This document shows, one piece after another, positions 3,389 through 16,518 of a stretch of DNA of 64,000 nt. The position numbers and the translations under genes were made by a program. The notes beneath the pieces were generated by a model. The model saw only the letters and a list, made by a program, of their open reading frames with translations, had not been told where the DNA came from and made no database searches. This DNA comes from Lysobacter arenosi. Its GTDB lineage: Bacteria > Pseudomonadota > Gammaproteobacteria > Xanthomonadales > Xanthomonadaceae. The stretch lies in the NCBI RefSeq assembly GCF_016613475.2, contig NZ_CP071517.1, positions 3,596,001 to 3,660,000 on the forward strand, written 5' to 3'. Within the stretch, counting starts at the first letter, position 1, and each line of letters starts with the position of its first letter.

Positions 3389-3505
3389 TGGTCGGCAGGC
3401 AGGTTCAGCGGGGGGTTGGGTCTGGCCGACGGGACCGGCTGGCACAATGGCGTCACGCGATCGCCACGTGACTCCGTGTCACCGTCTGAATGCGCCGCAG
3501 CAGGG

Positions 3506-5803
3506 ATGATGGCCTTCCAGGATGACCAGAAGATGATGCGAGACCTCGTGCCCGCCAGTTTCCGCCTCCTGCGCGCCGCATCCCGGCTCGGCCCCGGTCG
3601 GCTGGCCGCCCTGGCCTTGCTGGCGCTGCTCCCGGTTGCCTCGGCCCTGGCCCAGCAGGCCCAGCCGCCCTGCGTCGGCCTGGTCCTGGGCGGCGGCGGT
3701 GCCCGCGGCTCGGCCCATGTCGGCGTCCTCAAGGTTCTCGAGCGCGAACGCATCCCGGTGTGCCGGGTCGCCGGCACCAGCATGGGATCGATTGTTGGTG
3801 GCCTGTACGCCACCGGCTACACCCCGGCCGAAATGGAAACGCTGATCGAGACCATCGACTGGGCCGACATGTTCATCGACGACCCGCCGCGCGCGGGCCA
3901 GCCGATGCGGCGCAAGGACGCCGACTTCCGCTACCTGCTCGACCTGGAGATCGGTTACACCGACGGTCGCGTGGTGCTGCCGGTCGGCATCGTGCAGGGG
4001 CAGAAACTGTTGCTGCTGCTGCGCCGGCTGACCTTGTCGACGTGGAACGTGAAGGACTTCGACCAGTTGCCGATCCCGTTCCGCGCCGTCGCCGCCGACA
4101 TCATCACCGGCGACAAGGTGGTCTTCGAAGATGGCGACCTCGCACTGGCGATCCGCTCGAGCATGTCGGTGCCCGGTGCGTTCGCGCCGGTGCGCATCGA
4201 CAACCGCCTGCTGGTCGACGGCGGCATGGCCGACAACGTGCCGGTCGATGTCGTGCGCAAGATGGGTGCGCAGCGGATGATCGTGGTCGACGTCGGCTCG
4301 CCGCTGCACACCGAGGCGACGCTGACCAACCCTCTGGCGATCATGGACCAGATGATCAGCGCGCTGATGGCGGAGAAAGTGCGCGCGCAGCTGGCCACGC
4401 TGACCGACCAGGACGTGCTGATCCGCCCCGAGCTGGGCGACATCACCGCATCGGAGTTCAATCGCGGCGCAGAGGCGATCGCGATCGGCGAGAAAGCCGC
4501 CGAGGCCGCGTTGCCGCAGTTGCGCGCGATGGCCGTCGACGAAGCCACCTACGCCGCCTACCGCGAGAGCCAGCGGCAACGCAGCTTCGACCCGGGGCTG
4601 GTGCAGTTCCTCGACGTCATCAAGGTCGATTCGCCCTCGGCCAATCGCCAGGTCGAGCGCGCGGTGGCCGAGAACCTCGACAAGCCGTTCGATGTCGACG
4701 AGATCGAGAAGGACCTGGGCACCGCCTACGGCGACGGCCGCTTCCAGCAGATCGACTACCGGTTGACCGAACGCAATGGCGAGATGGGGCTGGAGATCAT
4801 CCCGGTCGACAAACCGTGGCGCGCCTTCGGCAAGCTCGGCTTCCAGCTCGACGACAACTTCAACGGCCGCAACAGCTACATGGTTTCGGCCGAGCTGACG
4901 TTCAACAACATCAACAGCCTCGGCGCCGAGTGGCGCACCGTGGGGCGCCTGGGGCGAATCACCGGCGTGCTGTCGGAGTTCTACCAGCCCTTCGGCCAGA
5001 CCGGCGAGTTCTACCTGAAGCCGTCGCTCGAGCTGCGCAACGAATCACTGCCGCTGTGGGCGAACGGCAACCAGTTGGCGGAGTTCCGCATCAACCGCCG
5101 CGAGGTCGCGCTGGAAGCCGGCTACACGCCGGAGCCGGAATGGCGGGTGTCCGCCCAGCTCATGCGCGGCCGCGACCGCGCTGACCTGCTGATCGGCAAC
5201 CCCAACGATTTCACCGGCGGCAAGGAGGGCTACGCCGGCATCGACTACAACGCCACCTGGGACACGCTGGACAGCATCAACTTCCCGACCCAGGGCACGC
5301 GTGTCAGCGTCGACCTGGAGACCTATTACGACGTGATGGGTGCGGACGTCGAAGGCAACGTCGCCCGCCTCACCGCCGACTGGGCACGCGCGTGGGGCCG
5401 CTACCACCTGCTGTTGGGTGCGCGTTTCAGCAGCGCGCTGGAAGACGACAACTTCTTCCAGACCCAGGGCTTCCTCGGCGGGTTCCTCAACCTGTCGGGG
5501 TTCGACGAGCGCGCGCTGTTCGGCAACCAGACCGCGCTGGCGCGCGCGGTGCTGTACCGGCGCACCGGCAATACCAGTCGCCTGTTCTCGTTGCCGATGT
5601 ATGTCGGCGCCAGCCTGGAAACAGGCAACGCATGGTTCAGCAAGGACCTGGTGGATGCCGACGACCTGATCCTCGCCGGCAGCCTCTTCATCGGCTTCAG
5701 CACGCCGCTGGGGCCGATGTTCCTGGCCTACGGCGGCAACGACGATGGCGAGAGCTCGTGGTACCTGACCTTCGGCTCGCTGCTGCGTCCGACCGTCAAA
5801 TAG
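3506..5803 (+). CDS. Patatin-like phospholipase with outer-membrane barrel (type Vd autotransporter, PlpD-like)
   Basis: The product has 765 residues from the ATG at 3506; ATGs at 3509 and 3533 are alternatives. A signal peptide ends near ASALAQQAQ. The patatin lipase domain (about 55-340) has the oxyanion GGGGARG (62-68), the nucleophile motif GTSMG (Ser82) and the DGG motif (Asp228), so the Ser-Asp dyad is intact. A POTRA-like segment (about 370-430) and a 16-strand-type Omp85/surface-antigen barrel follow to the end (about 435-765). This layout matches Pseudomonas PlpD, in which the barrel exports its own lipase domain. The stop is one base from the stop of convergent queD, and no terminator separates them. 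Confidence 0.92.
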   Translation: MMAFQDDQKMMRDLVPASFRLLRAASRLGPGRLAALALLALLPVASALAQQAQPPCVGLVLGGGGARGSAHVGVLKVLERERIPVCRVAGTSMGSIVGGLYATGYTPAEMETLIETIDWADMFIDDPPRAGQPMRRKDADFRYLLDLEIGYTDGRVVLPVGIVQGQKLLLLLRRLTLSTWNVKDFDQLPIPFRAVAADIITGDKVVFEDGDLALAIRSSMSVPGAFAPVRIDNRLLVDGGMADNVPVDVVRKMGAQRMIVVDVGSPLHTEATLTNPLAIMDQMISALMAEKVRAQLATLTDQDVLIRPELGDITASEFNRGAEAIAIGEKAAEAALPQLRAMAVDEATYAAYRESQRQRSFDPGLVQFLDVIKVDSPSANRQVERAVAENLDKPFDVDEIEKDLGTAYGDGRFQQIDYRLTERNGEMGLEIIPVDKPWRAFGKLGFQLDDNFNGRNSYMVSAELTFNNINSLGAEWRTVGRLGRITGVLSEFYQPFGQTGEFYLKPSLELRNESLPLWANGNQLAEFRINRREVALEAGYTPEPEWRVSAQLMRGRDRADLLIGNPNDFTGGKEGYAGIDYNATWDTLDSINFPTQGTRVSVDLETYYDVMGADVEGNVARLTADWARAWGRYHLLLGARFSSALEDDNFFQTQGFLGGFLNLSGFDERALFGNQTALARAVLYRRTGNTSRLFSLPMYVGASLETGNAWFSKDLVDADDLILAGSLFIGFSTPLGPMFLAYGGNDDGESSWYLTFGSLLRPTVK

Positions 5804-7980: not shown

Positions 7981-8790
7981 TCAGCTGCGTGACGGCTCGC
8001 TGGTCGACGACGCGACCTTGCCGCGCTCGCGCATGCGCAAGCCGGCGGCTTCCTCACGCGCACCCATGATCATCTCGCTCAGCCACTTGATCAGGATGGC
8101 CGTATAGGCCTTCTGCGCGGGCTTCTCGGTGAAGGCATGATCGGCGCCGTCGACCGTGCGCCGGGTCAGCGAGCGCGCATGCCGGAACGCTTCGGCGTAG
8201 TTGTCGATCACCGCCTCGGGCACGATCTCGTCGTGTTCGGCGGCCACCAACAGTGCGTGCCCGCGATAGTCGGCGCAGGCGCGCAGGGCGCGGTTCTGGT
8301 CCCAGCGCAGCGTGCTGCGGCGATAAGCGCGCAGGTCGGTGTCGACGTGCAGGCGCAGCTTCGGCAGGTCCCAGCCTTCGTCCTTGTAGAGCGCAGGCGA
8401 GCGCAGCGTCAGCCAGTGCACCGGGCGCAGCGCCGTCAGCAGCGCTGCGAGGTAGCCGCCGTAGCTGATGCCGACTACCGCTATGGCCGTGGGGTCGACG
8501 TTGGGTCGCCTGACCAGCCAGTCGTAGGCGGCGAGCAGGTCGGCCAGGTTCTGCGGACGGTTTACGTTCTCCCAATGGCGCGCGGTGCGCTCGTGCCCGC
8601 GCAGGTCGAATGTCAGGCAGACACAACCGATGCCGGCGGCCTCGCGGGCGCGCACCAGGTCGTGCTCCTGGCTGCCGCCCCAGCCGTGCACGAACAGCAC
8701 CCCCGGAAGGCGCGCGGCCGGAGACAGGACGGTGCCGCAGATGCGTTCGTCCTCGACGTCGAGCTCGACGGACTCAAGCCGGATGTCCAT
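7981..8790 (-). CDS. Alpha/beta hydrolase (dienelactone-hydrolase/acyl-esterase like)
   Basis: A 269-residue cytoplasmic alpha/beta hydrolase starting MDIRLESVELDVEDERI. Motifs seen are the oxyanion-side HGWGG (about 35), the nucleophile elbow GISYGG, the acid-loop region AAEHDEIVP and the catalytic His in DGADHAFTE. The substrate is unknown. Its start overlaps the last 17 bases of the DUF3182 gene, so the two are probably translated together. It is the last gene of the minus-strand block. An upstream ATG at 8814 is possible but would deepen the overlap. Confidence 0.85.
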   Translation of the reverse strand: MDIRLESVELDVEDERICGTVLSPAARLPGVLFVHGWGGSQEHDLVRAREAAGIGCVCLTFDLRGHERTARHWENVNRPQNLADLLAAYDWLVRRPNVDPTAIAVVGISYGGYLAALLTALRPVHWLTLRSPALYKDEGWDLPKLRLHVDTDLRAYRRSTLRWDQNRALRACADYRGHALLVAAEHDEIVPEAVIDNYAEAFRHARSLTRRTVDGADHAFTEKPAQKAYTAILIKWLSEMIMGAREEAAGLRMRERGKVASSTSEPSRS

Positions 8791-9976
8791 GGCGCTCGCT
8801 GTCGTGCGTTGCATCGCCGATGGGGGCGCTGCATGCCGGCGCATCGTCGGCTTCGACGATGGCGTACTTGGTGATCGACCCGACCACCGGGTCCTCGCCG
8901 CGGAACGAGACCTCGGCACCGGCAGGCACGTCGATCAGGTCGTAAACCTCGCACGAGGAAACGCAGATCCGTTTCCGGCCGGGATCCTCGTCGAACGCCC
9001 GTAAGGCCAGCACTTCTGCCGGCGATGCCCCGCCGAAACGCCACGACTGCTCCAGCACGCCGCAGCGGACTTCGCCGGCACCGTCTTCGCCATGGACGAT
9101 GTCGTAGTTGCGGCGCGACGCGAAGAACTGCGGCCAGGCACGGCTGACTTCGCGGTCGTAGCCGACAGACGCGGCGATGGCACGACGTTCGCGCTCGTCG
9201 ACGGCGGCCCGCAGCAGGTCATCGAGACCGCCGCGCAGGCAACGCAGCGTCGAACCACCATAAACCTCGTGCCCGGCATGGTTGCGCGTTGTCCGCTGCG
9301 TGCCGCTGTAGGCCAGGGATATCGTGCCGACCATCAGCACGCCGACGCTGTAGGTGGTCGCCGTCGCCAGGTTCAGTTCGAGCACCAGGCCGGCCTCGCC
9401 GATGGCAGCGGCATCGAGGCTGTCGATTGCCGCGTCAAGCTCCTGCGCGGTGGCGACGACGCGCTGGCCAGAGCCGCCGATGCCGTGCCCGGGCTTGCTG
9501 CGGATGGGCATGCCGGAGGCCAGCAGGGAACGACCCGCGCGCCGTGCGTCGTCCAGGTTGAACACCGTCACCCCCGGCAGCACGGACGGCGCCAGCGCAT
9601 CGCCGAGCGCAGGCGACCAGCCATCGGGGAGATCGCGCGCGCCTTCCGGCGCCGGATGCGTGATCGACTTGGTCGCCACGAACGGGTGGGGCACCACGCC
9701 ACCGAACAGATCCGCAGGGCCGTGGATGCCGAAGCGTTCGGCTTCGGCGGTCAGCAGCGTCCGGTCGGGTACGAAATAGACAGGCCCGTCGAACGCGCTG
9801 TCGACAACGTACTCGCCTCCGAAGCCCAAACGGAGGGCCGTTGCCAGATGCTGCGCGGCCCACTGCCGCGTGGCCTTTTCGTGAATGCCGCGCTTGCGGG
9901 TGAGGATCAGGTCGAGCACTTGGCCACGGTGCGCCTGACCACGGTTGCGTTCTCCCCGACCGATCGCGCCGGCCAT
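8774..9976 (-). CDS. DUF3182 family protein (ATP-grasp-like)
   Basis: A 400-residue cytoplasmic protein. I assign it to DUF3182 from memory of the family's length and layout. The central part resembles an ATP-grasp enzyme: a lysine in RSKPGHGIGGSGQRVVA (about 180, loop-like), an acidic strand (AGLVLELNLATATTYSVG) and an RNYD segment. No substrate is known for the family. ATG 9976 lies 6 bases after the stop of the small upstream gene; TTG 9982 is an alternative. Its 3' end overlaps the hydrolase. Its place between a small conserved protein and a hydrolase suggests a small-molecule ligase/hydrolase pair; this is inference. Confidence 0.75.
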   Translation of the reverse strand: MAGAIGRGERNRGQAHRGQVLDLILTRKRGIHEKATRQWAAQHLATALRLGFGGEYVVDSAFDGPVYFVPDRTLLTAEAERFGIHGPADLFGGVVPHPFVATKSITHPAPEGARDLPDGWSPALGDALAPSVLPGVTVFNLDDARRAGRSLLASGMPIRSKPGHGIGGSGQRVVATAQELDAAIDSLDAAAIGEAGLVLELNLATATTYSVGVLMVGTISLAYSGTQRTTRNHAGHEVYGGSTLRCLRGGLDDLLRAAVDERERRAIAASVGYDREVSRAWPQFFASRRNYDIVHGEDGAGEVRCGVLEQSWRFGGASPAEVLALRAFDEDPGRKRICVSSCEVYDLIDVPAGAEVSFRGEDPVVGSITKYAIVEADDAPACSAPIGDATHDSERHGHPA

Positions 9977-9982
9977 CTCCAA

Positions 9983-10294
<312 letters not shown>

Positions 10295-11491
10295 TCAGTG
10301 CCAGGCGCTGCCAACCTGGATGTAGAACGTTTCATCCTCCGGGCCCCATGCGTAATCGATGCCCGTGTAGAGGCCGAGCTGGCGAGCGATCAGGTAGCGC
10401 ACGCCGGTGCCCTTGGCGACTTCGCTCTGGCCATCACCGAAGCTGTTGTGCCGGCCCCAGGTGCGACCTGCGCCGGCGAATGCGATCAGCGCCCAGCGCG
10501 GCGTCATGTTCCAGCGCAGCTCGGTCTCCAGTGTCGCCGCGCGCGTGTCCTGGTAGCGGGCCGAGCCGATACCGCGCAGGTCGATGTAGGGCAGCCGGTA
10601 GAACGGGATGTCGCCGTTGGCCCAGCGCACGTCGGCTCGGCCACCCAGGACGAAGCGATCTCCGCCAGAAGACAGGCGGCCAAAGGGCAGGTAGCCGAAG
10701 GCATGGCCGCGGTAGCTCTGGAAGTCGTTGTCGCTGCCGATCAGATCATCGTAGAAGTTGCCTTCGATCATCCCCAACCAGCCGTTGTTGGGCGTGAACG
10801 TGTTGTCGCGGTCGTCGAACTCCAGCGACAGGCCCAGGCCGGAGCTTCGCTCACTGAGTTCCTTCGGGTTGAACCGGTCGCTGTCGGACTCGACATCGAA
10901 TCCGATGTCCAGGTCCATGTAGATCCACGCCAGGCCCACGAACAGGTCCTGCTTGCCCAGGCGCTTGAACACCTGCTGCAACGACATGATGCCGTCCATG
11001 TTGTAGCCGATCTGCTGCGGCGGCAGGAACCGCCCGGGCGTATAGAAGTCCAGGTTGATGTCGGTCTTGGCGACGCCGCCGCGGTAACGCCAGCGGTCGT
11101 CGTCGAAGTGCAGGATCGCGCCGGCACCGTAGGCCTGGCTGCCATTGGAGGTGCGCATGGCACCGAAGCCGTAGATGTCGGGCGCAACCATCTTCTTGCG
11201 TCCGTCGTCATCGGTGCGCGTGGTTGCGCCTGCTGGCTTGTGGAAGAAGGTCAACGCAATGCCACCACCCGTACCGACGGCGGGGTCGGTGATGATGATC
11301 GGCACGGGCAGGAAGCCCTTGTGCTCGAGCAGCCAGCGCGACATGTCGAATTTGCTGTCGGCGGGGTCCTGCAGCAGTTCGCGGAATCCGTCCTTGGCCG
11401 GCGCGTCCGTCGTCACTTCGTCTGCGGCATCCACGGGTGTCGACATCACCATCGCCATCGACAGGCCAAACCCCACCAGCAATGCCTTCAT
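10295..11491 (-). CDS. BamA/TamA-type outer-membrane barrel protein (surface antigen, without POTRA)
   Basis: A 398-residue protein with a signal peptide (MKALLVGFGLSMAMVMSTPVDA). An N-terminal segment with DPAVGTGGGIALTFF is typical of the start of bacterial surface-antigen barrels. Regular beta strands follow (GLGLSLEFDDRDNTFTPNNG, RFVLGGRADVRWANGDIPFY), and the YIQVGSAWH end carries a terminal aromatic. POTRA domains are absent, so it is not BamA itself. The DDRDNTFTPNNGW motif is diagnostic of Omp85-type barrels. It ends the five-gene exported-protein series; the 31-base gap from the upstream gene supports cotranscription. It may be a porin-like partner of the secreted proteins upstream. 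Confidence 0.83.
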   Translation of the reverse strand: MKALLVGFGLSMAMVMSTPVDAADEVTTDAPAKDGFRELLQDPADSKFDMSRWLLEHKGFLPVPIIITDPAVGTGGGIALTFFHKPAGATTRTDDDGRKKMVAPDIYGFGAMRTSNGSQAYGAGAILHFDDDRWRYRGGVAKTDINLDFYTPGRFLPPQQIGYNMDGIMSLQQVFKRLGKQDLFVGLAWIYMDLDIGFDVESDSDRFNPKELSERSSGLGLSLEFDDRDNTFTPNNGWLGMIEGNFYDDLIGSDNDFQSYRGHAFGYLPFGRLSSGGDRFVLGGRADVRWANGDIPFYRLPYIDLRGIGSARYQDTRAATLETELRWNMTPRWALIAFAGAGRTWGRHNSFGDGQSEVAKGTGVRYLIARQLGLYTGIDYAWGPEDETFYIQVGSAWH

Positions 11492-11522
11492 CCGTTGTCC
11501 CTGGATTGTTTGCGAAGTCGGC

Positions 11523-12476
11523 TCAGAACGTGATGCTCGCCGAGAGCATGAACGGGTCACCCTTGAGCCGGTTCTCGACATCGAACTCCTTCAGCCAGCG
11601 CGCCGAGAATTCGACCTGGCCGCCGTCCCACTTCTTCGCGTAGGTGGCGATCGGTCCGAGCGCGAGCGAGTGGCCCTTGAAGCCGTCCAGACGGTCGGCG
11701 AGCGCACTGTCATCGTCTTCGATCTGTTCGATCCAGCCACCGACACCGCCGATGCCCCAACCGTTGCCGAAGCGCTTGACCAGCAGCGAGTCGACGCGGA
11801 ACACCGCGCCGTTCTGGTAGTCGGTGGCTTCGTTCTCGGTGTAGATGTCGACCGCGGTCGTGGTGCTCCACTCCAGCGTGCCCTTCTGGAACAGCTGGGT
11901 GTAGCCGACCGTCGGCGAGAAGGTCCAGTTGTTGAGGCTGGGATTGGCCAGGCGCCCGGCTTCGTAGTCGCCGGTCGGCGCGTAGATGTACAGCGACAGC
12001 GAGACGTGGCGAAGCTGGTCGATGTGGTAGCTGGCGATCACCGGCGCGAAGAATGCGTCGAACAGCCCGCTGTCGCTGTCGCTGCGGGTGCCGGTGATCG
12101 GTCCCAGGCGCACGTCGGCATCGGCTTCGACATCGATGAAGGGAATCGTCGCCATCGAGGCGAAGTTCCAGCGGCCCTCACCGGTGTCCCAGATGTACAG
12201 GCCGGTGAGGGTGAGCATGTCGAAGGTGCCGGTCAGGCCGACCGACGTGACGCCGCCGATCGGAATCTCGCGCTCACCGCCGATGTCGCCGGAGTAGTGC
12301 GCGTAGCCGATCTGCATGTTCCAGCCCGGCGTGGGCGGGATCAGGCCCGAGTAGGACGCCGCCTGCAGGCCGGTGATCGGGCGTCCGACCGCGCCTTCGG
12401 TTGCGCATGCCGGCGCGAAGATGGCAGCGGCGCTGACGGCCGCTGCAAGGATGGATCCACGAATCGTTTTGTTCAT
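11523..12476 (-). CDS. Outer-membrane transporter of the MetA-pathway / SphA-like family
   Basis: A 317-residue protein with a signal peptide (MNKTIRGSILAAAVSAAAIFAPACA) that contains a possible lipobox-like APAC. The body is a barrel with strands such as TSVGLTGTFDMLTLTGLYIW, WTFSPTVGYTQLFQKGTLEW and GWGIGGVGGWIEQ, and a final SASITF. Pattern and length fit the Phenol_MetA_deg family of presumed hydrophobic-substrate channels. Substrate unknown. It starts 22 bases after the GPW-repeat gene's stop and precedes the BamA-like gene, which puts two different barrels side by side in one operon. Confidence 0.8.
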   Translation of the reverse strand: MNKTIRGSILAAAVSAAAIFAPACATEGAVGRPITGLQAASYSGLIPPTPGWNMQIGYAHYSGDIGGEREIPIGGVTSVGLTGTFDMLTLTGLYIWDTGEGRWNFASMATIPFIDVEADADVRLGPITGTRSDSDSGLFDAFFAPVIASYHIDQLRHVSLSLYIYAPTGDYEAGRLANPSLNNWTFSPTVGYTQLFQKGTLEWSTTTAVDIYTENEATDYQNGAVFRVDSLLVKRFGNGWGIGGVGGWIEQIEDDDSALADRLDGFKGHSLALGPIATYAKKWDGGQVEFSARWLKEFDVENRLKGDPFMLSASITF

Positions 12477-12498
12477 TCAGGCCCCCCGGCCGTTGTTG

Positions 12499-15090
12499 TC
12501 AGCGTCGCCGGAACCCGCCGCCGCCCATGCGACCGCCACCCATGCTGGGACGGAAGCCGCCGACCGGCCGGTTGTAACCACCGGCCGGACGGTTGTAGCC
12601 GCCAGCGGGCCGGTTGTAGTTGCCGCCGGAACCCATGTTCGACGGTCGCCCGCCGTAGCTGCCGCCGGTGATGCGCTCGTTGCCGCGGTCGCGCGCCATG
12701 CGTTCGCTGTCGAGTTGGCGGGTTTCACCGCCCAGGTTCCTCGACGAATCCGGACGCGTGACCTGGCTCCAGCCGTTCTCGTCGTGCTTGTAGACGTTGC
12801 CATCCTTGCCGGCGTAGACGTTGTCGTTGATGTTGACCACGCCACCGCGACTGAGCTCGCCGGAGTCGGCGTTGTAGTGGAAACCGCCCGCGCCCTTGGC
12901 ATCGACGCGATCGCCCTGGCTGTTGAACGCGCCGCCACCGGCTGCGCCATTGGGTCCGGCCACTGCGCCACCGGCACTTTGCGTCACACGTCCGGTGTTG
13001 GTGTTGACCGTGGTGCGGCTGCCGCCTGCTGCGGCCTGGCCGGTGTACGGATTGACCGCGACTCCGCCGCCGCCGGCGACGACGCGACCGGTCTGCGGGT
13101 TGTAACGGATGCCCTGCGCGCCAGCGCGCGTGGTGCCGGTATAGATGTTGGTGTTGACGCCGGCGCGGCCGACGCCGCGACCGCCGGTGGCTTCGTTGTA
13201 GTAACCGCCGCGGCCAGCGCGACCGACATTGCCGGTCCACGGATCGGCCCAGGCGGCTGCAGTGCCGCGAACGGCGGCATTGCCCCAGTGGCCATAGACA
13301 TTCCACGCGGCCGCGCCACCGCCCCAGTAGCCCCAGCCATAGCCCGGGCCGTACCACGGGCCCCACCAGGGGCTGTAGGGACCGTACCAGCCGCCGTACC
13401 AGCCCCAGCCGTAGCCGAACGTCCAGCCGACCCAGGCGTTCCAGCCGAAGTACACGCCCATGCCGTAGGTCGCCGGGCAGCCGTACCAGTACGCGCCGAC
13501 CCACGGGTCGCAGGCGTAGCCGGTGCCATAGACGACCACGTTGTCGGTCACTACCGTGCCGTAATAGCCCGGCGTGTAACCGACGTACACCTCGTCGTCG
13601 CTGCTGCCGTACACGCGCACGTAGGTGACGTAATGCAGCGGCGAGCTGGTCGGGATCGAATAGATCTCCGCCGGCACGCTGGTTGCCACCGTCCACGGAC
13701 CGGTCGCCGAGCTGGCGTTGAACCAGATGCCCTTGTCGACCGCGTAGAAACTGTTGGCCGCGACCTTGATCACCGGCACTGCGGTGTTGTGCGCGTACTG
13801 CAGCGTGGTGCCGCCGATCGAGACGAACTGCGGCGCGCCGTCGTACTGCACGTTGAGCTTGGCTTCGTTGCGCTTGACCGTCGCGTTCTGCGGGATGTCG
13901 TTGGCGATCAGCGCCTCGCGCGATTCAGGCGTGTTCGGTATCGAGGCCAGCACGCCGCTCTTCGGGCTGTCCGGCGGAATCTTCGCGAACTCGGCCGGCA
14001 GGCTCGACGGCGGCACGTAGCGCCACGGTCCCTTGCTGGTCGCGGCAGTGAACCAGCGGCCCGACACGAGCACGTACCAGGCATTGTCGGCGGCGCCGTC
14101 GAGGATCACGTCGGCGCCGGTGTTGTCGATGTAGCTCAGTTTCGTGCCAGGGATGGCGAGGAACTGCGGCTCGCCCTGCACCGAGATCAGCTCCGACGGG
14201 TGGGTGCGCACGTATATGTCGGGCGCCCTGCCAGAAGCGAAGTCCTGCTTGAGCGCATCGGGCGGATTGTCGAACGTGTCGACGTCCTTGCCTGCCTTCG
14301 CCATCGCCTGCGTCAGCGCCGCATCGACGCTGGCAGCCGCGGTCCACGGGCCGCTCAGCGCGGGTGCCGTCGACCAGTGCCCGGCGACGTTGGTGTAGTA
14401 CTTGCCGCCTTGCTGCAACAGCAGCGAGCGGGTGTTGATCACCCGTTGCACGCCCGACACGCCGCTGGGCTTGAGCACCGGATTGCCGTCGACCAGCAGC
14501 AGCACCGCCGGCGTGGTGCTGAAGATGATGTCGGGCGGGTCGTTCTTCACCGGCAGCGACGGCGGCATCTTCGCGTCGACCTCGGCTATGGCCATTGCCG
14601 ACTCGAGCATGTCCAGCGACAAGGTCAGGGTCGACTTGGTCTTCAGTTGCTGCCGTGCCAGCTGCAGGTACTGGTCCTGCTTGGCCGTCGCGGTCGGGAA
14701 GCTCGCCGACGGCAGCTGCAGGTCGGTCAGCACCACCGCGCGCGCTTCCTTGTCGATCTCGGTGCGCGCCTGGAACTGCACCACGCCGTAGTCGAACGAC
14801 GGCTCCGATTTGCCGTCCTTGCCGGTGTGGACGCCCGACTTCACCGCCATCACGAAGCGGCCCTTGAGCTGGTTGCCTTCCCAGCTGTCGTACTGCGGCT
14901 GGTGCACGCTGAAGCTGGTGCCCTGCACGGTGAAGTCACGCGGGAACGGACGTGCGTCGATGTTCGCCGCCGCTGACGTGCCGGTCGACGATGTCCCTTG
15001 CGCGACCACCTGCGGTACACCGAACAAGGCCGACCCGGCGAGCATGGCGATGGCCAGGCTCAGGACCGGCACGATGGGATTGATGCGCAT
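12499..15090 (-). CDS. Large secreted GPW-repeat, Gly/Tyr/Trp-rich protein
   Basis: An 863-residue protein. A signal peptide (about 1-30) comes first. A mixed alpha/beta region (about 45-500) contains three spaced copies of a motif like YxxxxGxWxxAxxxxGPW: GHWSTAPALSGPW, GRWFTAATSKGPW and GIWFNASSATGPW. A very Trp/Tyr/Gly-rich stretch follows (about 525-600), then Gly/Asn/Arg repeats and three tandem GGYNRPAGG-type units at the C-terminus. I recall similar proteins labelled carbohydrate-binding family V/XII, but no glycan-binding site is proven here. The low-complexity C-terminal half suggests a surface or extracellular matrix role. It is the third of five exported-protein genes. Confidence 0.8.
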   Translation of the reverse strand: MRINPIVPVLSLAIAMLAGSALFGVPQVVAQGTSSTGTSAAANIDARPFPRDFTVQGTSFSVHQPQYDSWEGNQLKGRFVMAVKSGVHTGKDGKSEPSFDYGVVQFQARTEIDKEARAVVLTDLQLPSASFPTATAKQDQYLQLARQQLKTKSTLTLSLDMLESAMAIAEVDAKMPPSLPVKNDPPDIIFSTTPAVLLLVDGNPVLKPSGVSGVQRVINTRSLLLQQGGKYYTNVAGHWSTAPALSGPWTAAASVDAALTQAMAKAGKDVDTFDNPPDALKQDFASGRAPDIYVRTHPSELISVQGEPQFLAIPGTKLSYIDNTGADVILDGAADNAWYVLVSGRWFTAATSKGPWRYVPPSSLPAEFAKIPPDSPKSGVLASIPNTPESREALIANDIPQNATVKRNEAKLNVQYDGAPQFVSIGGTTLQYAHNTAVPVIKVAANSFYAVDKGIWFNASSATGPWTVATSVPAEIYSIPTSSPLHYVTYVRVYGSSDDEVYVGYTPGYYGTVVTDNVVVYGTGYACDPWVGAYWYGCPATYGMGVYFGWNAWVGWTFGYGWGWYGGWYGPYSPWWGPWYGPGYGWGYWGGGAAAWNVYGHWGNAAVRGTAAAWADPWTGNVGRAGRGGYYNEATGGRGVGRAGVNTNIYTGTTRAGAQGIRYNPQTGRVVAGGGGVAVNPYTGQAAAGGSRTTVNTNTGRVTQSAGGAVAGPNGAAGGGAFNSQGDRVDAKGAGGFHYNADSGELSRGGVVNINDNVYAGKDGNVYKHDENGWSQVTRPDSSRNLGGETRQLDSERMARDRGNERITGGSYGGRPSNMGSGGNYNRPAGGYNRPAGGYNRPVGGFRPSMGGGRMGGGGFRRR

Positions 15091-15169
15091 GGGTGGCCTC
15101 TATGCAGTGAAACCGTACGGTTTGTAGCGGGGCGCGCTTTCACGCGCGCCGGATGGGTTGCCGCCCGGC

Positions 15170-15721
15170 TCAGCCGGGCGGATTGACGACGACGTACTGC
15201 ACGGTGGTGCCCGCGTACTGCGGTTCGTACCAGGTGCTTCCGCACTGCTGGTAGGCGACGCCGTTGACCACGGAGGTCACGCAGCTGGGCGGCACCGAGT
15301 AGACGATCGATCCGATCACCGCCGAGGTCACCGCCACGGCCGTGGTGACTGCGGCGGCGGTCGCGATCGGATGGTCGTCCCAGCCGTGGTTCCAGCCGTT
15401 GTCGACATCGATGTCGATGTCGTTGTGGATGTTCACGTCGCGGTTGATGTTGGTATTGCGATTGACGTTGGTGTTGCGATTGACGTTGTGGTTGACGTTG
15501 GCGTTGCGGTTGACATTGGCATTGCCGCCACGGTTCGCGTTCGCCGCGCGGGCACCGCCGCCACCGCCGCCGCGCGGTGCCGAAGCGTGGTTGACGCTGG
15601 TGCGCGCGCCGCCACGGGCGTGCGGTCCGGCTTCGACATCGAAGCTGACTGACATCAGCGCGGTGGTACCGGCAAACAGCCCAAGACCGATACCGAGCAA
15701 GGTGAGGTTGCGGATGCTCAT
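15170..15721 (-). CDS. Exported Asn-repeat protein of unknown function
   Basis: A 183-residue protein with an N-terminal hydrophobic segment (LTLLGIGLGLFAGTTALMSV). A Gly/Ala/Arg linker follows, then a run of Asn-x-Asn units (NVNRNANVNHNVNRNTNVNR and onward, about 70-105), a DIDIDVD acidic end, a hydrophobic helix (AAAVTTAVAVTSAVIGSIVY) and a conserved-looking tail with a Cys pair (PPSCVTSVVNGVAYQQC). The Cys tail is shared by many uncharacterised small exported proteins. Its ATG overlaps the DUF2092 stop as ATGA, which implies translational coupling. The repeat could be adhesive or a beta-solenoid-like spacer; this is inference. Confidence 0.75.
   Translation of the reverse strand: MSIRNLTLLGIGLGLFAGTTALMSVSFDVEAGPHARGGARTSVNHASAPRGGGGGGARAANANRGGNANVNRNANVNHNVNRNTNVNRNTNINRDVNIHNDIDIDVDNGWNHGWDDHPIATAAAVTTAVAVTSAVIGSIVYSVPPSCVTSVVNGVAYQQCGSTWYEPQYAGTTVQYVVVNPPG
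15425..15530 (-). repeat. Short degenerate repeats coding for Asn-x-Asn units
   Basis: On the minus strand, near-repeats of AAC-x-x-x-AAC spaced 6-12 bases encode the Asn/Arg/Val array. The copies differ at third positions, so the protein pattern rather than the DNA appears to be kept. Confidence 0.75.
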
Positions 15722-16518
15722 GGCGACTTCTCCTCTACGGCGACCACGTCGACCGCGACCATCTGGATGCGGTGGGAGTCCTTCGGCGGAGTGAAGGTGA
15801 AGGCGCTGTCCTTGAGTCCGGCGGCGGTATTCCAGGTCAGCGTGGAGGCGTACTGCGGCTGTGCCGGGTCATCGGTGGTGGTGATGACCAGGCGGCGCGG
15901 CAGCGGCTTGGGACCAGCCTCGATCCAGACCTGCCAGTCGACACCTTCCTGGCGGAAGGCGTACTGGTCGGTGACCGTGCCGTCGATGCGGGCCGGGCCG
16001 ATCCGTGCCGCCGACTTCAGTGCCGACGTCGGGGCCTGGTCGGTCCCCCACAGGAACAGGTCGGCCAGCGGCATCTCGATGCCGTACGTCGATTCGACCG
16101 TGCCCAGCAGTTCGCGGATCGTCGGCGGCGCATCGACGGTGGCGTAGTACTTCGCCTTCGGGCCATAGACGGTCAGCGACTTGCCGTCGTAGAACATCTG
16201 CCGCTCCTTGCGATCGCTGTGCAGGTCAAGCTGCAATTTGTCGGGTGCTCGCACCTTGTAGTCGAGGGTGCCCGGGAACTGCAGTTTCTGACCGTCCTCC
16301 ATCACCAGCTCGATGGTGGTGTCGGCATGCACGGTGAAGTCCTTCAAGGAGCGCAGGTACTTGCCCATCTTCTCCAGCGCGGCAACGGCCTCTGGCTGCA
16401 CTGCCGGCGCAGCGGCGGGCGCGGCTGCCGGCGGGTCGGCCTTGGGCGGGGCGGCGGCCATGGCCAACGGCGCGGCGAGCGCCAGGCACAGACCTGTGAT
16501 CAACGCGGGGTGACGCAT
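15718..16518 (-). CDS. DUF2092 family periplasmic protein
   Basis: A 266-residue protein with a signal peptide (MRHPALITGLCLALAAPLAMA) and a Pro/Ala linker. The DUF2092 domain (about 45-265) resembles LolA/LolB-type or outer-membrane lipoprotein-sorting folds: paired strands DFTVHADTTIELVMEDGQKL, DYKVRAPDKLQLDL, MFYDGKSLTVYGPK and RRLVITTTDD. AGGAG before the ATG at 16518 fixes the start; an upstream ATG lacks one. It is the first gene of the exported-protein operon and overlaps the next gene by four bases. A lipid- or peptide-binding carrier role is plausible from the fold but not shown. Confidence 0.82.
   Translation of the reverse strand: MRHPALITGLCLALAAPLAMAAAPPKADPPAAAPAAAPAVQPEAVAALEKMGKYLRSLKDFTVHADTTIELVMEDGQKLQFPGTLDYKVRAPDKLQLDLHSDRKERQMFYDGKSLTVYGPKAKYYATVDAPPTIRELLGTVESTYGIEMPLADLFLWGTDQAPTSALKSAARIGPARIDGTVTDQYAFRQEGVDWQVWIEAGPKPLPRRLVITTTDDPAQPQYASTLTWNTAAGLKDSAFTFTPPKDSHRIQMVAVDVVAVEEKSP

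Follow-up and report, generated by a model that had tools for sequence, protein, structure and literature searches.

Do the products of five closely spaced genes of Lysobacter arenosi work together, and if so, on what? According to open reading frame (ORF) calls and their coordinates, these genes, here called A to E, fill positions 10295-16518 on the minus strand of the window, that is, the whole 64,000-nt stretch that was analysed (G000:C1:3596001-3660000, from a one-contig 3.95-Mb genome). They are as follows:

15718..16518, minus strand: A, DUF2092 protein of 266 residues (PF09865, E 5e-68, 229.1 bits against a cut-off of 21.2)
15170..15721, minus strand: B, 183 residues, with an Asn-rich repeat and a conserved C-terminal stretch (118-182) seen in its sequence
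12499..15090, minus strand: C, GPW-repeat protein of 863 residues, assigned to no Pfam or NCBIfam family
11523..12476, minus strand: D, PF13557 (Phenol_MetA_deg) outer-membrane barrel of 317 residues (E 1.5e-47, 163.1 bits against 22)
10295..11491, minus strand: E, Omp85-type barrel of 398 residues without POTRA domains (PF01103, E 3e-7, 30.7 bits against 24)

Genes A and B (16518-15718 and 15721-15170) share a 4-base ATGA overlap, and the gaps are 79 bases between B and C, 22 between C and D, and 31 between D and E. We call A-E an operon on this spacing alone; a sequence scan detected no promoter-like site, and its count of 4 terminator-like sites is close to the 3.7 of shuffled sequence. A hydropathy window, which is not a signal-peptide predictor, places a hydrophobic stretch near the N-terminus of all five proteins. 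The first-pass annotation of this DNA was right on these points, namely the genes with their strand and spacing, the assignment of A to DUF2092 and of D and E to barrels, and the hydrophobic N-termini.

The answer comes from the distribution of these families in other genomes. They associate with each other, and a minority of the C and E loci also bring them together with a sulfatase gene set, whose HAD gene they track across genomes. The recurrent neighbours, namely sulfatase, its activator FGE (formylglycine-generating enzyme), a HAD hydrolase and a DUF4136 lipoprotein, would point to ester handling and not to protein secretion. The reading that we favour, and hold tentatively as a little less than an even chance, is that A-E supply the outer-envelope components of a gene set that is modular and patchy in its distribution and that acts together with formylglycine-dependent sulfatases.

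The association with HAD was examined in 398 sampled genomes of Proteobacteria. The surveys of C, HAD and E are assumed to share the same 398 genomes (matching handles, genus total of 213). Presences are lower bounds, with the best few candidates per genome scored, and our own genome (G000) is in the sample. For C and HAD, a query chosen after HAD had been noticed beside C, 10 genomes had both, 3 only C, 25 only HAD and 360 neither (p 1.8e-9). HAD was thus present in 10 of the 13 C-bearing genomes and in 25/385 without C; when the genomes were collapsed to 213 genera, a step that leaves deeper relatedness uncorrected, the counts were 7/10 and 19/203 (p 1.7e-5). For E and HAD, the numbers were 15 with both, 6 with only E, 20 with only HAD and 357 with neither (p 2.2e-13), that is, HAD in 15/21 E-bearing genomes and 20/377 others (by genus p 1e-8). 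C and E were found together in 6 genomes, C alone in 7, E alone in 15 and neither in 370 (p 1.4e-5; by genus p 1.8e-4).

Beyond the genus, C turned up in 1 of 23 further genomes of the same family; in the wider sample it occurs in 13/398. We compared the surroundings of 43 non-genus C loci, a set that omits the genus loci, L012 (the same place as L061), short duplicates among L033-L041, L042/L043 and the 53-residue L020. Some flanks are one-sided or short (e.g. L011, L013, L018, L019, L044, L045, L048, L054, L059, L064 and L065). We counted a partner wherever tblastn matched 30% of a query at E 1e-6; several queries were taken from L008, L014, L045, L058, L062, L063, L097 and L098, and closely related loci within the 43 cannot be treated as independent. 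Families were named by Pfam at some loci, by the records' own annotation at others and by tblastn at the rest. Partners were present at 12/43 loci: E at 6, D- or G-type barrels (G being a second barrel, see below) at 8, and sulfatase, FGE or HAD at 9. The latter recur beside C in both Gamma- and Alphaproteobacteria. In particular, L008 (Pseudoxanthomonas) holds three sulfatases, FGE, D, A, B, DUF4136, C, E and HAD, and L014 (Stenotrophomonas) holds one CSPTR-type sulfatase, FGE, A, B, DUF4136, C, E, G and D, with no HAD in the stretch. Among Rhizobiaceae, L045 and L097 combine C with a PF13557 barrel, a DUF900 hydrolase and an arylsulfatase, and L098 and L100 combine it with a barrel, HAD and FGE. 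L062 and L063 bring together a barrel, HAD, DUF4136, E and C, and L058 has C, HAD and a sulfatase.

Loci centred on E or HAD give a similar picture from the other side. Three of 20 E-centred regions, which stand for 29 listed matches, clearly contain a sulfatase, FGE or HAD (L125, L127 and L136; L127 coincides with HAD locus L114), and C is in 0/20. L125, in a same-family genome, has the run DUF202-sulfatase-FGE-D-A-B-DUF4136-E, all on the plus strand and never more than 164 bases apart, without C and without HAD; the sulfatase (CTAGR), FGE, D, DUF4136 and E are named by Pfam, and DUF202, A and B by tblastn only. A further group of A-, B- and G-like genes lies beside this run in inverted orientation (L125:12998-15313). 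In 20 HAD-centred stretches, taken from 39 listed matches, we found a sulfatase in 14, D/G barrels in 7, FGE in 6, E in 2, DUF2092 in 1 and C in none. Bat/VWA-type genes, a possible further partner, occur in 7 of these 20 stretches; such genes recur near L097 (annotated MoxR, DUF58 and VWA), L098 (BatD and VWA), L100, L109, L113, L115, L118, L119, L121 and L122.

How firmly, then, are the five genes held together within the genus? The co-conservation check was borne out for C, which is in 12/12 genus genomes, and for D, which adjoins it in 12/12 (the window and 11/11 other loci), but less so for A+B, which adjoin C-D in 10/12 (missing in G002 and G008), and for E, which is full length in 7/12, absent at the locus in G005, G006, G010 and G011, and reduced to its two ends in G008. 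The barrel gene G follows D in 7/12 genomes; the window, G005, G006, G007 and G011 lack it. The order A-B-C-D-(G)-(E) is kept throughout, and the window is a reduced form of an A-B-C-D-G-E locus, because G follows D in most of the genomes but not here. The proposed linkage of the five genes is therefore only partly upheld: the families recur together and keep their order in the genus, but all five are present in only 6/12 genus genomes. The proposal of a fixed five-part display or secretion machine is not supported, given a sixth gene in 7/12 genomes, C with none of the searched partners at 31/43 non-genus loci and the run of L125 without C. A second DUF2092 gene, 32-39% identical to A, lies elsewhere in 5/12 genus genomes (L080-L084), namely both genomes without A+B at the locus and three others; none of the other markers occurs in the 16 kb around each.

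The losses of single members (A+B in two genomes, E in four with the remnant in G008, G in five) would suit a plain operon in which unrelated exported proteins are controlled together, for instance by envelope stress. We nevertheless consider this explanation quite unlikely, because subsets of the same families come together again in distant genera with the gene order changed (L008, L014, L060, L062, L063 and L125).

C matches no Pfam or NCBIfam family at E 0.1. It carries GPW at residues 247, 354, 464 and 577 and is divided as follows:

14608..14961, minus strand: residues 44-161, N-terminal domain with a TULIP-like predicted fold (structure model)
13501..14544, minus strand: residues 183-530, three predicted GPW modules (structure models; GPW at 247, 354 and 464)
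13261..13485, minus strand: residues 536-610, stretch rich in Gly, Trp and Tyr (29, 17 and 15%), modelled with low confidence

In a structure comparison of the predicted fold of residues 44-161, YceB, OrfX2, LBP and BPI top the list, with YceB best. The model thus resembles YceB/BPI (TULIP) proteins by structure and not by sequence profile: against a 7-sequence alignment of DUF1439, the sole TULIP family compared, hhalign gave 0.8% and E 0.07, and no TULIP family is among the Pfam matches of 21 C members. Among public sequences, the nearest relatives found belong to Lysobacter (95% identity in L. prati). More distant ones are annotated as 'carbohydrate-binding family V/XII', 'SH3 domain-containing' or 'LysM'; the CBM5/12 label is not borne out for C itself, which has no match to a CBM profile. 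The copy in L019 is split into two reading frames, and that of L042/L043 is interrupted by stops.

E was first labelled BamA-type. The Omp85 barrel domain is indeed there, confined to residues 215-397 of 398, but Pfam and NCBIfam searches found no POTRA domain, and the NCBIfam scores fall below cut-off (56.5 against 200 bits for NF047779; 20.8 against 297 for OM_YaeT, the BamA model). E cannot be called BamA, TamA or TpsB, because it lacks POTRA. Of the other barrels, the L045 partner matches PF13557 with 191.8 bits and the L007 copy of G with 26.1 against a cut-off of 22; the G-like proteins of L045 and L062 have no Pfam match.

These results bear on a dedicated surface-display or secretion system, in which A would be a carrier, D and E the pores and C the displayed extracellular protein. 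Such a system is in keeping with five hydrophobic N-termini, a low-complexity Gly/Tyr/Trp stretch in C, and E adjoining C at 6/43 non-genus loci and being full length in 7/12 genus genomes. It appears improbable to us, since E has no POTRA domain, C stays where E is absent (4/12 genus genomes) or a remnant (one), and the recurrent partners are hydrolases and not secreted substrates. In addition, SH3_3 in one relative of C and a LysM annotation in another suggest a wall-facing periplasmic place.

For A, published modelling claims a LolA-like fold of DUF2092 (excerpted text of PMC4520260); in a search of PDB sequences, the best phmmer match of A to solved LolA had E 0.55, which is not significant. 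B has no Pfam family above cut-off and no NCBIfam family. Together with three relatives it shows a weak resemblance to DUF6515 (E 0.0025-0.025, below cut-off), and its residues 118-182 are 75-77% identical to the L008 and L014 counterparts.

The enzymes themselves are present in this genome. It has four CTAGR-type sulfatases, one of which sits in a DUF202-sulfatase-HAD-FGE cluster (L085, C1:1.397-1.402 Mb); its CTAGR is at residue 79 (PF00884, E 4e-51), and the FGE matches PF03781 with E 4.9e-87. We looked at this cluster in 9 of the 12 genus genomes, our own included, and it is in 9/9.

Several results weigh against a joint function of A-E and these enzymes. There is no physical linkage: A-E lie at 3.606-3.613 Mb, separated from the cluster by 2.2 Mb of contig (1.7 Mb in the opposite direction, should the contig be circular). 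By eye, no signal peptide is seen in the cluster sulfatase, HAD or FGE or in the three other sulfatases; joint work must therefore involve inner-membrane crossing, and nothing in A-E explains such crossing. Enzyme relatives at L106, L107, L045 and L058, also judged by eye, do have signal peptides. Outside the genus, C stands without any searched partner at 31/43 loci (including L049-L054, L056, L057, L016, L018 and L019). In favour of the link, sulfatase, FGE or HAD occur at 9/43 loci (P 6e-8), or in 5 of about 30 lineages (P 2e-4). Both P values take 1.8% per locus as the chance rate, a figure assumed and not measured, and they are post hoc and descriptive only, the markers having been picked from some of the same loci.

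The many solitary C loci agree with a role in handling periplasmic lipids or maintaining the outer membrane that has nothing to do with sulfatases, in which case the sulfatase neighbours would be a side effect of islands that collect envelope genes. So do the TULIP-like predicted fold of C, the LolA-like fold claimed for DUF2092 in the excerpts of PMC4520260, and patatin-Omp85 genes near the operon in the window and in L125. This explanation is somewhat unlikely in our judgement, because C and E track HAD in the 398-genome sample and the sulfatase, FGE and HAD genes recur beside C in two proteobacterial classes.

If A-E do serve formylglycine-dependent sulfatases, the barrels D and E (and G where present) would pass an amphipathic sulfate or phosphate ester through the outer membrane, and the putatively LolA-like A and the predicted TULIP-like domain of C could keep it in the periplasm. 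C may be tied to the envelope by its GPW modules and its Gly/Tyr/Trp-rich tail. The sulfatase and the HAD hydrolase would then cleave the ester, in the periplasm where the enzymes are exported and in the cytoplasm in this genome, a placement made because no signal peptide was seen. Both the substrate and the direction of transport are what we infer in this model.

Four known systems invite comparison. The first is the formylglycine sulfatase and FGE locus (PF00884 and PF03781): relatives of A-E do sit with a C-T-A-G-R sulfatase and FGE, but the envelope genes here are 1.7-2.2 Mb from the enzymes. Described sulfatase loci carry SusCD or permease genes and are not known to include DUF2092, PF13557 or POTRA-less Omp85 proteins. 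The second is the noNterm Omp85 group, which shares with E an Omp85 barrel without N-terminal extension and for which a role in membrane-protein biogenesis is suggested (excerpts of Heinz and Lithgow 2014, PMC4104836); the E-type barrel differs in that it co-occurs with HAD and at some loci adjoins sulfatase genes. The third comprises the bacterial TULIP proteins, listed in the excerpted text of Levine 2019 (PMC6791001) as YceB/DUF1439, DUF4403, DUF2140, DUF2993 and P47/OrfX2. The predicted fold of C 44-161 is closest to YceB, but C combines this domain with three GPW modules and a Gly/Tyr/Trp stretch, and the domain has no significant profile match to DUF1439.

The fourth is PlpD, a patatin-Omp85 fusion. 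A 33% relative of the window's PlpD-type gene lies directly after E in L125. The window gene itself, named from sequence as a patatin with an Omp85 barrel (3416-5803, plus strand), lies 4.5 kb past E on the opposite strand and has same-side relatives in seven genus loci (L002, L005, L007, L010, L071, L075 and L077). Unlike PlpD, E has no patatin domain by Pfam.

Note that the run of genes has no clear end at E. Two further features follow on the same strand:

9983..10264, minus strand: 93-residue ORF beginning 30 bases downstream of E, which may share its transcript
8774..9982, minus strand: DUF3182 protein (PF11379, E 2.6e-126), a syntenic downstream neighbour

An alpha/beta hydrolase-like gene, named from its sequence, comes next, and all three (window 7981-10264) may share the operon transcript in this strain. 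The label 'only exported proteins' thus depends on where the transcript ends, because same-strand genes continue past E. Counting the window, the 93-residue ORF has a relative in 11/12 genus loci, and DUF3182 and the hydrolase are syntenic in 9/12; in the genus, these genes mostly lie 0.5-1.2 kb beyond the last operon gene, as against 30 bases here.

An unlikely but more far-reaching possibility is that C represents an additional family of bacterial TULIP proteins, and that A-E and the separately located sulfatase, FGE and HAD genes make up an undescribed trans-envelope route for uptake (or export) and cleavage of an amphipathic sulfate ester, its POTRA-less Omp85 barrel serving a small amphipathic molecule instead of a protein. 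The association gives a common and testable context, a sulfatase and its activator, to DUF2092, C, DUF4136, these PF13557 barrels and POTRA-less Omp85 proteins, all of them families without established function. If the reading that we favour is right, barrels of a class so far linked to protein assembly may act on small amphipathic molecules, and the label 'carbohydrate-binding family V/XII' would cover candidate lipid-binding proteins of the envelope.

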